Assembly (NCBI RefSeq): GCF_015353075.1 | Contig: NZ_CP064191.1 | Span: forward strand, 124,001 to 188,000 | Length of the DNA: 64,000 bases | Source of the DNA: Rhizobium sp. 007 | GTDB taxonomy: Bacteria; Pseudomonadota; Alphaproteobacteria; Rhizobiales; Rhizobiaceae | Direction of reading: 5' to 3' | Part shown: piece after piece, positions 53,049-56,267 of the stretch | Layout of the letters: each line of letters begins with the position of its first letter | Numbering within the stretch: the stretch's first letter is position 1 | Notes under the pieces: generated by a model | Databases searched by the model: none | Told to the model about the DNA's origin: nothing | Seen by the model: only the letters and a program-made list of their open reading frames with translations | Translations under genes and position numbers: made by a program

Positions 53049-53974
53049 CTATTTGTCTGCCACGTTTTCGACAAACCATTCATAGGATTTGACCAGTCCG
53101 ACCTCAAGAGAGGTCTTGGGACGCCACCCCATTGACTCCAGTTTGGCGCTGGACAAGAGCTTTCGTGGCGTTCCGTCAGGCTTGGATGCGTCAAGTCCTA
53201 TCTCACCTTTAAAGCCAACAATGTCGCAGATGAGCCGCGCAAGTTCGATGATGGTTATGTCGCTCCCGAAGCCGACGTTAATGTGTTCTGCCTCGGAATA
53301 ATGCTTAAGCAGGAATATCAACGCATCGGCACAATCTTCACTGTACAAGAACTCCCGGCGCGGCGTTCCGCTCCCCCAAATAGACAATCGATCGAGGCTT
53401 TTAATCTTTGCATCGTGTGCTTTGCGTATTAACGCTGGCACGACATGACTGGAGGCGAGATCGAAATTATCGCGAGGACCATAGAGGTTTGTCGGCATGG
53501 CTGAAATGAAGTCTGCGCCGTGTTGCTTGCGATAGGCCTGACATAACTTGATGCCGGCAATCTTCGCAATTGCGTACCATTCGTTGGTCGGCTCAAGCTG
53601 ACCAGTCAGTAACGCTTCTTCCTTTATGGGTTGTGAAGCATACTTCGGATAAATACAACTTGATCCAAGAAAAAGTAGCTTCTCAACGCCGTTCTGCAAG
53701 GAGGCCTCGATAACGTTGACCTCCATTGCCAGGTTCTGATAAATAAAGTCAGCCGACATAGTGTTATTTGCAAGGATGCCGCCCACCTTCGCTGCCGCCA
53801 TTATGACAGCGTGCGGTTTCTCTTTCGACAGAAACTGCTCAAATTCCTTCTGCCGCGTTAGATCAACGTTCTGCCTATCGGCAACGATAACTTCGCAGTC
53901 GATTGGGCTATCGCGCTGCCGACCATGCCCCTGTGTCCTGCAACCCAAACTCGTTTTCCGCTTAACGAATACAT
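53049..53974 (-). pseudogene. nolK: nolK, GDP-fucose synthase, inactivated by a small deletion
   Basis: NolK (GDP-4-keto-6-deoxymannose epimerase/reductase) makes GDP-fucose. The start MYSLSGKRVWVAGHRGMVGS then AIAQ at 53974 is correct, but the frame shifts near 53905. The rest, from DCEVIVADRQNVDLTRQKEF through LFLGSSCIYPKYASQP and the EWYAIAKIAGIKLCQ active site (YxxxK) to the end, continues in another frame. About 16 bases seem missing at the dinucleotide-binding fold. The downstream frame alone lacks the Rossmann motif and would be inactive. Confidence 0.9.
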
Positions 53975-53979
53975 CGACT

Positions 53980-55041
53980 TCAGGCCTCCTTTACTGTCAA
54001 GCTGCCCTTTATTACGTGAAGGTCTTCGTTGATCATTTCGCGGACAAGCTCCCTCACGCTTGTTTCGTGTCTCCAGCCCAGAACCCGTTGCGCCTTGGTC
54101 GGATCGCCTAAGAGCAGATCTACCTCTGTTGGCCTGAAATAACGTGGATCTACTGCCACGACGCATTTGCCTGTGGCGACATCAATGCCCTTTTCCTCGA
54201 CCCCTTCTCCCACCCATTCAATCGTCTTTCCGGTTTCCTCGAATGCCCATTCTACAAACATGCGAACCGGTGTTGTCACCCCCGTAGCCAGGACATAGTC
54301 GTCTGGCCTGTCCTGCGCTGACACATCATCCACATGCCGCGCACATACTCACGGGCATGGCCCCAATCACGTTGAGCATCAAGATTTCCCAGATAAAGCA
54401 CGTCCTGTTGGCCGAGACTGATTGCTGCCGCACCCCGGGTAATCTTGCGAGTGACGAATGTTTCACCTCGCAGCGGGCTCTCGTGATTGAAAAGAATACC
54501 GTTGGAAGCGTGGATGTCGTAAGCCTCTCTATAGTTCACGACAATCCAGTACGCGTAGAGCTTTGCGGCAGCGTAAGGTGAACGCGGGTAGGTGTCTTCT
54601 CATTTTGCGGTACTGCTTGGGACCATATAGCTCTGACGTTGATGCCTGGTAAAAGCGGGTCCGATTGGTCAGTTCAAGAATTCGAATAGCTTCAAGCATG
54701 CGCAAGGTACCAATTGCATCAGCATTCGCGGTGTATTCCGGCGTTTCGAAGCTTACCTGGACGTGACTCTGCGCGGCGAGATTGTAGATTTCATCCGGCT
54801 GGGTTTGCTGCACAATGCGCAGCAAATTGGTCGAATCTGTCATGTCTCCATAGTGGAGAAAAAACCTGGCTTCAGGATCGTGCGGATCCTGATAGATGTG
54901 CTCTATACGTTGGGTATTGAATGATGATGAACGACGCTTTATGCCATGAACTATATAGCCCTTTTCCAGCAGCAGTTCCGCAAGGTATGCCCCATCCTGA
55001 CCTGTTACCCCCGATATTAAAGCTACTTTCTGATCTGCCAC
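53980..55041 (-). pseudogene. noeL: noeL, GDP-mannose 4,6-dehydratase, frameshifted
   Basis: NoeL catalyses the first step from GDP-mannose to GDP-fucose. From the GTG at 55041 the frame reads correctly: [32 protein letters not shown]. It breaks near 54620, just after the catalytic Ser-Glu region. The [20 protein letters not shown] part (catalytic YxxxK) is in another frame, then the frame continues through [20 protein letters not shown] and [15 protein letters not shown]. It breaks again near 54315, before [20 protein letters not shown]. At least two separate lesions are present, so the gene is dead. Confidence 0.93.
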
Positions 55042-55079
55042 TTTGAAATCTCCAATTATTTTGCTTGTGGGGGGAGGAC

Positions 55080-55290
55080 TGCATTTTGAATAGCGCTCTC
55101 AGCGCCAAACGAGGTCGATGCAGATCACCCCGCTGATGAGGCGCCCGTGCGTGAACAGGATGCCGTCCGAGGCAGAAGTGGATAGAGCGGTTTCGCTCCG
55201 TCTGAGGGATTTCCTGCACCAGGCCTTGGAGCTCGACCTCAGTAGGCCTAGAAAGTCGATGCGTCGGCATTCGCGGTACATTCGAGGCTG
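55080..55290 (-). pseudogene. Relic of a second GDP-mannose dehydratase gene
   Basis: Between nodZ and noeL one frame reads TEVELQGLVQEIPQTERNRS and another ASDGILFTHGRLISG. These match consecutive parts of GDP-mannose dehydratase ([31 protein letters not shown]). The first half and the YxxxK part between them are missing. The relic keeps a QEIPQTE stretch that the neighbouring noeL has lost, so it is a separate copy and not a piece of it. Confidence 0.72.
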
Positions 55291-55295
55291 ACCAC

Positions 55296-56267
55296 TTATG
55301 AAGCCGGAAGATCCTCTGACGAATCTTCAATCAAGATCAAACGACTTGGGTCGTTCAGGTCGAATTCAATAACCCGAGGCACGAAAAGTCGGGCGTAGCG
55401 CGTGAAGGCGCTGGTCGGGGGAAAACGAATCACGGTATCGCATCGCGCGAGAAGATACATCTCAACGAGGGCGGAAAGGCCGCCCTCGACTCCAAGTGCT
55501 GGACTGTGCAATGGTCCCGCCCGGCGCGCCTGGAAACTTTTGGAGATAGTGAACAGATCTGGAACTGCAGCCGATACCTGATCCAAAACCTGCTCGCTAT
55601 CCGTACACAAGAACACCCTCACAGGTTTTGGATGCGGTAACGTTTTGGCCTTTTCGATGGCAGCGCATACCTGCCGTAGGGCAAACTCCGGATCGGACCA
55701 ATAGGGCGCATGGTCCATAATATCTTCGCCATTGCCGTGTCGAACATGAACGCCGATTATGCTGTGACCTTTGAAGTGTTCCTGATAGATAGCTTCAATC
55801 CGAGCTTGAACTTCGGCCTGCGGCTTGACACTCTGAAAAATCTGTCGCTCTGCCTCCTGATCGCAGCGCCACATCAAACAAGCATCACACACTACTGTAT
55901 TGGCTTCACTATCAGCTTGAGCCTCGAAAAGCTCACTCAGTTCGTCGCGTTCTCGGAAAATCTGTTCATCTGGGCGGTAAACGCAGTCAATCGATGGCTT
56001 ATTCCACCACTGTGGGAAGAACGGCCCCGGGAACGAAACCTGGTTGATCTGCTCATCGCAAATAACCGGAACGCCAGCAATGTCTCCAATAGGCTCGAAG
56101 AACAGCGGAAAGGCGTTCGTAAAGGGTTGATCGAGATAACAGGACTCACGCCAATCGATGGCTAGCGTGCGCCCCGTCCGCTGCGCGTAGCGCCAAGCCG
56201 CCGCCAGCGACCACAGGCAATCACCGAAACCAGTACGCCGTCGAGAAACGACGAACCGGTCCTTCAT
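55296..56267 (-). CDS. nodZ: NodZ, Nod factor alpha-1,6-fucosyltransferase
   Basis: A 323-residue family 23 fucosyltransferase that attaches fucose from GDP-fucose to carbon 6 of the reducing-end sugar. MKDRFVVSRRRTGFGDCLWS is the conserved start. VHVRHGNGEDIMDHAPYW (GDP-fucose binding arginine) and VIRFPPTSAFTRYARLFVPR are intact. It is full-length with no visible lesion. About 250 bases upstream is a nod box. It heads nodZ-noeL-nolK, but the two donor-synthesis genes are broken. Confidence 0.95.
   Translation of the reverse strand: MKDRFVVSRRRTGFGDCLWSLAAAWRYAQRTGRTLAIDWRESCYLDQPFTNAFPLFFEPIGDIAGVPVICDEQINQVSFPGPFFPQWWNKPSIDCVYRPDEQIFRERDELSELFEAQADSEANTVVCDACLMWRCDQEAERQIFQSVKPQAEVQARIEAIYQEHFKGHSIIGVHVRHGNGEDIMDHAPYWSDPEFALRQVCAAIEKAKTLPHPKPVRVFLCTDSEQVLDQVSAAVPDLFTISKSFQARRAGPLHSPALGVEGGLSALVEMYLLARCDTVIRFPPTSAFTRYARLFVPRVIEFDLNDPSRLILIEDSSEDLPAS

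Follow-up and report, generated by a model that had tools for sequence, protein, structure and literature searches.

Here we describe a symbiotic plasmid that has kept the gene for the enzyme attaching fucose to the Nod factor, nodZ, while both local genes for the supply of its donor, noeL and nolK, are interrupted by frameshifts. Taking the explanation as a whole, we consider it quite probable that noeL and nolK are true pseudogenes, that the supply of GDP-L-fucose has been lost with the enzyme using it retained, and that carbon 6 of the reducing-end sugar is left to the sulfotransferase NodH. Nod factor decoration is a classic key to host range, and fucose and sulfate share this one carbon.

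The window, by which we mean the whole 64,000-nt stretch of Rhizobium sp. 007 DNA that was analysed (C5:124001-188000), belongs to a 7.6-Mb genome of five contigs that is rated 100% complete. Contig C5 measures 441 kb and is read as a symbiotic plasmid, since nodABCIJHPQ and nif genes lie inside the window. A 20-kb piece of the 2.28-Mb contig C2 places the strain in the R. gallicum complex, to which R. yanglingense also belongs: the piece shares 99.2% identity with R. gallicum IE4872, 98.7% with R. gallicum M101 and 95.1% with Rhizobium sp. CC1099. An initial assignment to Sinorhizobium was rejected in view of the match to R. gallicum IE4872. A scan of the window and four further stretches of C5 for RTX/nodO motifs found no array. 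The features discussed below are collected in Table 1.

Table 1. Nod factor genes and nod boxes of the window, numbered from its first nucleotide.
Feature	Position	Strand	State, extent and basis
nod box of nodABCIJHPQ	1799..1846	plus	38/40 specified positions; at most 26 in 20 mononucleotide shuffles
nodH, predicted Nod factor sulfotransferase	6638..7420	plus	intact, 260 aa; relatives, R. sullae DNA
nodP, sulfate adenylyltransferase small subunit	7628..8641	plus	intact; TIGR02039 1-294 of 294
nodQ, sulfate adenylyltransferase large subunit/APS kinase	8617..10536	plus	intact; NF004035 10-627 of 632
noeI, FkbM-family methyltransferase	51878..52612	minus	intact, 244 aa; TIGR01444 1-142 of 143
noeI nod box	52807..52854	minus	upstream of noeI; standard spacing
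nolK (fcl, GDP-L-fucose synthase)	53049..53974	minus	pseudogene in two frames; 13-nt deletion
noeL (gmd, GDP-mannose 4,6-dehydratase)	53980..55041	minus	pseudogene in three frames; two 4-nt deletions and one 2-nt insertion
nodZ, predicted alpha-1,6-fucosyltransferase	55296..56267	minus	intact, 323 aa; homology to solved NodZ 2hhc
nodZ nod box	56522..56568	minus	47 nt, upstream of nodZ; 6-nt spacer between ATC-N9-GAT and distal half
nodF nod box	57580-57627		upstream of nodF
acyl carrier protein (nodF)	57826-58125	plus	name inferred from gene order and nod box
beta-ketoacyl-ACP synthase (nodE)	58126-59331	plus	name inferred from gene order and nod box

The lesions were mapped by alignment to S. 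alkalisoli YIC4027 and A. pusense IRBG74, in which noeL and nolK are intact. In noeL, the two deletions lie around positions 54621 and 54591 and the insertion around 54315; as their sum is -6, the frame is restored after the third indel, leaving about 100 codons out of frame between the first and the third. The Gmd enzyme requires, in one continuous frame, a nucleotide-binding motif together with a catalytic Thr/Glu and Tyr-x3-Lys. Read from its start, noeL encodes some 140 residues of the native protein and then about 30 out of frame, up to a stop at 54529, losing its frame past TSELYG, and the YAAAK motif, which is among the displaced codons, falls in a different frame. The deletion in nolK, around 53900, follows about codon 24 and leaves a start frame of 38 residues. 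Fcl combines an N-terminal GxxGMVG dinucleotide motif with a Ser/Tyr/Lys core, and it is roughly these first 24 codons, with the motif GHRGMVG, that the deletion separates from the remainder. The same alignment contains no frameshift in nodZ. The frameshifts originally noted in both local GDP-fucose genes are thus borne out, with the genes at the coordinates first given, and to judge from these reading frames, local synthesis of GDP-fucose is dead.

Could the frameshifts instead be errors of sequencing or assembly, hiding a pathway that functions? We regard this as highly improbable. Four independent events, of 4, 4, 2 and 13 nt, are restricted to two functionally linked genes, and nodZ and 15 other nod and nif genes of the window are free of such lesions; NodA, B, C, I, J, P and Q, as well as NifA, B, H, D, K, E and N, match their NCBIfam models over nearly the full length. 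None of the indels amounts to a one-base homopolymer change, and their sizes, atypical of the one-base kind, together with the intactness of the 15 other genes, argue against assembly error. However, the genome or its assembly does carry some small indels, and some assembly error is therefore possible: comparison of a 20-kb control piece of C2 with three relatives yielded 47 own-specific substitutions and three own-specific indels (4, 1 and 1 nt), with one of the one-base indels cutting a 327-aa ORF to 112 aa. In particular, the one-base flaw of the nodZ nod box could be a small indel of this kind. It also speaks for error that no second carrier of the noeL and nolK lesions was found, either with 3.2 kb of DNA against 148 Rhizobium genomes (our own included) or in two protein searches. 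Among the matches listed for the DNA query, no other exceeded 80% identity, the best reaching 77-80% for nodZ and 65-73% for gmd or gmd-fcl. Each of the two protein searches scored 8000 candidates; among the best 120, the shifted end of noeL was matched at high identity by the window's own entry alone, and the nolK frame by none above 85%.

The original prediction made one reservation, namely that a chromosomal gmd and fcl might supply GDP-fucose, and the rest of the genome was therefore searched with Gmd and Fcl of S. alkalisoli as queries against all five contigs. The Gmd query returned the three noeL fragments (91, 88 and 77% identity), followed at 28% by rfbB, and the Fcl query returned the broken nolK alone (85%), with a next best match at 26%. 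Furthermore, the fucokinase/pyrophosphorylase salvage family PF07959 is absent from the genome, in a search whose control matched in 5 of 14 genomes and rose above the cut-off in one. Rescue by a chromosomal gmd or fcl is as such excluded at the level of orthologues, and NodZ would appear to have no GDP-fucose donor at its disposal. Pfam PF16363 alone is misleading here, because the model also matches rfbB and other dehydratases; it gives 24 matches in this genome, and the best on the chromosome, at C1:1431537, considered as a gmd backup, was rejected as the rfbB of an rfbABCD rhamnose cluster (names that follow from our reading of the translations).

The sensitivity of this search was good, since the Gmd query found matches in 28 of 36 relatives within the genus and in all 50 other nodZ genomes. 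The best match per genome was 53-98% identical wherever one was found; within the genus it reached at least 66% in 20 genomes and 53-58% in eight, where it may represent a related enzyme. The searches for gmd, fcl and nodH covered 50 of the 72 nodZ loci (74 with L009 and L010). In 49 of these 50 genomes gmd is full length, defined as a single match covering 340 or more of the 360 residues (in six of the 49 it runs beyond the gene's own stop, at residue 352), and an Fcl match of at least 300 of 314 residues is present in all 50. B. valentinum, the apparent second nodZ genome lacking gmd, was rejected as such because runs of N break up both of its copies. Within the flanks of the 74 loci, many of which end at contig ends, gmd and fcl each occur in 21 and both in 19, all full length. 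Furthermore, at least 11 other Rhizobium genomes match nodZ over positions 2-973, and each of them also has a separate gmd match among the matches listed. Of the nodZ carriers examined, only the present genome lacks a usable gmd.

NodZ might still fucosylate if GDP-fucose came from an unrecognised source, whether a very divergent Gmd and Fcl, a salvage enzyme or an outside supply, and nodZ itself looks as if still useful, being intact and not relaxed (dN/dS of 0.10-0.14 against seven relatives). We nevertheless consider such a source very unlikely, given that the best remaining proteins are so distant and, for Gmd, belong to rhamnose synthesis, that the salvage family is missing, and that the best gmd match is so much closer in the other genomes that gave one.

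How long ago were the donor genes lost? The three noeL pieces, the first of which includes three codons beyond the first lesion, show dN/dS of 0.04-0.08, 0.04-0.22 and 0.13-0.28 against seven relatives, and nolK shows 0.07-0.09. For six pairs of intact copies, the corresponding values are 0.03-0.06, 0-0.10, 0.10-0.18 and 0.07-0.13. Measured as dN to locus L053, the window (0.030, 0.038 and 0.100 for the noeL pieces, 0.085 for nolK) lies close to S. alkalisoli (0.032, 0.031, 0.089 and 0.085). The window's third noeL piece and its nolK are 1.2-1.4 times as far from L018 and L048 (0.117 vs 0.084, 0.124 vs 0.098, 0.078 vs 0.057 and 0.095 vs 0.079). An excess of amino-acid changes in the broken genes is at most slight, confined to the last noeL piece and nolK. 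The loss therefore looks recent, with donor genes that were, on the scale of dN/dS, working until recently.

The enzymes downstream of the missing donor are encoded by intact genes, as had been claimed. NodZ aligns without gaps to the solved NodZ 2hhc over residues 2-322 (E 1.4e-176), including the HVRHGNGED segment, and matches all 74 nodZ loci, the best at about 82% identity and two distant ones at 39%. NoeI is likewise complete, and the fucosylated Nod factor that is its predicted substrate would be missing. Nod boxes had been claimed for both genes, and here the result is divided, the box of noeI being standard and that of nodZ existing only with a spacer one base short. We take the consensus to consist of ATC-N9-GAT, a 7-nt spacer and an ATC-N-AAACAATC half. 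Compared with this consensus, the halves of the nodZ box match at 6/6 and 23/24 positions, around a spacer of 6 nt. The spacer measures 7 nt in the nodA, nodF and noeI boxes of the window, and in all 24 nodZ boxes that a scored scan detected, with 50 of the 74 scanned loci giving no box above threshold; a strict core search gave 0/74. A literature search for a test of NodD tolerance to a short spacer found none among the papers listed.

The claim that nodHPQ is intact also holds, with NodH, NodP and NodQ all being full length. As NodH has no specific NCBIfam model it was judged by its relatives instead, to which residues 12-259 align (five Rhizobium at 66-68% and a sixth at 55%). NodH and NodZ modify the same C-6 of the reducing-end sugar, and the original prediction had the two compete for it. 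The shared carbon stands, while the word 'compete' hides a likely order in which NodZ acts on chitooligomers before NodH acts on lipo-chitooligomers (LCOs): according to the available text of one study, NodZ fucosylates C-6 at the reducing end and prefers chitooligomers, whereas NodH prefers LCOs (PMC5080398). In the same text, around 63% of deacetylated oligomers of an S. meliloti nodA mutant are sulfated, and about 5% of the LCOs of IRBG74 without nodZ are still fucosylated (PMC5080398). Since NodH thus sulfates early intermediates, the order is not absolute, and NodZ need not win even when a donor is present.

NodZ would usually precede NodH when GDP-fucose is available, and it would be the loss of this donor that frees C-6. 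NodZ, if made, would then have no donor and NoeI no substrate, and the free C-6 hydroxyl of the reducing-end GlcNAc could be used by NodH with PAPS from NodPQ. The main Nod factors are accordingly predicted to be 6-O-sulfated or bare, and unfucosylated. A direct precedent for the donor step being enough is found in S. fredii HH103, where inactivation of noeL is reported to remove methyl-fucose (PMC4881576). On this reading the factor is probably sulfated, the loss may record a change of host, and the donor genes would have been lost after nodHPQ had been acquired. The original prediction is thereby supported in part.

The presence of nodH does not in itself force the loss of fucosylation. Although 14 of the 50 nodZ genomes give a nodH match at E 0.001, the only true one is that of M. 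kowhaii (67%, E 2e-107; the next at 5e-6), which has gmd and fcl alongside nodH and nodZ, and the pair can therefore coexist when donor is supplied. Among the 36 relatives within the genus, nodH occurs in six, and nodZ is near full length in three and broken or fragmentary in four, with no overlap between nodH and nodZ. Such a lack of overlap has a probability of about 0.24 and is therefore not beyond chance in this sample.

We must however take into account that the same lesions could record neutral decay, in which the fucosylation block arrived with the plasmid, never mattered or no longer did, and is now eroding at its promoter and donor genes, with nodZ and noeI to follow. The nodZ nod box, off by one base, fits this course of events, as do the broken or fragmentary nodZ genes of four Rhizobium relatives (G005, G007, G017 and G034). 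Conversely, the substitution patterns of nodZ, noeL and nolK remain near those of functional genes, so that any decay must be young, and noeI has retained a standard nod box. We therefore hold neutral decay to be possible, though somewhat doubtful. If true, the biochemical outcome would be the same, and there would be no host switch to read from it. Rather unlikely, in our view, is that the plasmid acts as a decoration switch that depends on its genomic background. Because most of the genus relatives examined have a gmd of their own, noeL and nolK would be redundant in gmd-bearing hosts and would have decayed for that reason, with nodZ still under selection. The plasmid would then yield sulfated factors with a gmd-less chromosome like the present one and fucosylated factors in a recipient positive for gmd and fcl, and host range would be set by the recipient's own surface-sugar genes.

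Whichever course led to the loss of donor supply that we favour, the genes involved point to several sources. In the loci compared, the nearest relatives of NodZ are those of Bradyrhizobium, Mesorhizobium and Sinorhizobium sp. 8-89 (L018), all at about 82%, and those of the noeL pieces and nolK are from Sinorhizobium/Ensifer, at up to 94.6% and 85.8%. A separate origin of nodZ and noeL-nolK was considered and rejected, as NodZ is equally close to all three of its nearest relatives. The nearest noeI genes, at 86%, are those of M. tianshanense and M. temperatum; no other of the 74 loci has a flanking noeI, and at the DNA level noeI is 81% identical to a Bradyrhizobium plasmid. The DNA of nodH is 83% identical to an R. 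sullae plasmid, and that of nodABCIJ 83.8-85.4% to S. numidicum, S. garamanticum and R. sullae. On these identities, genes for fucosylation and for sulfation, of mixed origin, appear to have come together on the plasmid.

The closest known arrangement is found in two symbionts of Sesbania, S. alkalisoli YIC4027 and A. pusense IRBG74, which share the gene order nodZ-noeL-nolK, with 83.2 and 82.7% DNA identity over noeL-nolK and 77% for NodZ. In both, noeL and nolK are intact, whereas here they are broken; and nodH, present here, has no match on the two plasmid records of these strains, which were the records compared. Furthermore, genes for phosphomannomutase and mannose-1-phosphate guanylyltransferase adjoin nodZ in S. 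alkalisoli, and no such ORF stands beside nodZ here. Alternation of the two gene sets between symbiotic plasmids is already known. According to the available texts, nodHPQ alternate with nodZ between the symbiotic plasmids of R. etli sv. mimosae and sv. phaseoli (PMC4125696), the plasmids of R. gallicum sv. gallicum and phaseoli differ in nodHPQ, which those of sv. gallicum carry (PMC5356054), and nodHPQ also occur in other Medicago-nodulating Rhizobium (PMC9048898). While in R. etli and R. gallicum whole gene sets differ by plasmid (PMC4125696, PMC5356054), here both sets are found on one plasmid, with the donor pathway of one set broken. The Caragana symbiont R. yanglingense CCBAU01603 resembles the present strain in being a Rhizobium with an uncommon and divergent nodZ, treated as a possible host determinant in a report whose main text does not contain the words nodH, noeL or nolK (PMC5702008).

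In the open-licence literature, which misses most subscription journals, we found no report of noeL and nolK being lost naturally while nodZ is retained. The nearest parallel in function is the S. fredii HH103 noeL mutant, in which, as here, noeL is lost; that mutant was made in the laboratory, whereas the present case is natural, extends to nolK and occurs in the presence of nodHPQ (PMC4881576). The fucosylation pathway is likewise incomplete in S. meliloti KH46b, which belongs to a species known for its sulfated factors. This strain forms a mirror image, since in the published description available it keeps noeL and nolK and lacks nodZ (PMC4053727). A natural, donor-starved NodZ would mean that carrying nodZ is not by itself a sign of fucosylation, and would tie the type of Nod factor to the presence of gmd and fcl in the rest of the genome. 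In the published cases found, the transferase gene is swapped or absent, whereas here the transferase is kept and it is the supply of the sugar nucleotide that has probably been lost, with backup searched for and lacking.

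Damage to nodZ itself is a second route by which fucosylation can be lost, the gene being broken or fragmentary in four Rhizobium genomes (relatives G005, G007, G017 and G034; loci L093, L097, L094, L095, L096 and L098). In Mesorhizobium kowhaii Ach-343, nodZ, nodH, gmd and fcl are all present (loci L020 and L115). Both gmd copies of B. valentinum LmjM3 (L142 and L143) are interrupted by a run of N, which in searches mimics a split gene.

Features near the fucosylation genes in the window
Feature	Position	Description
Polysaccharide cluster	45828-51750	adjoins noeI; pyruvyl transferase, flippase, two glycosyltransferases, UDP-sugar dehydrogenase
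nodZ/noeL interval	55042-55295	about 250 nt
nod box of nodZ	56522-56568	spacer 1 base short

The spacer of the nodZ nod box is shorter than that of all other nod boxes compared, which may mean either weaker NodD control of the block or a one-base assembly error. In the control stretch (L136:10392), an own-specific 1-base deletion leaves 112 aa of a frame that runs to 327 aa in R. gallicum IE4872; this is either a pseudogene or an assembly error. The interval separating nodZ from noeL aligns poorly with the intact blocks, and no recognised gene was found within it. The polysaccharide cluster, for its part, shares 92.4% identity with R. gallicum plasmid NZ_CP092345.1, a far closer match than the surrounding nod genes show.
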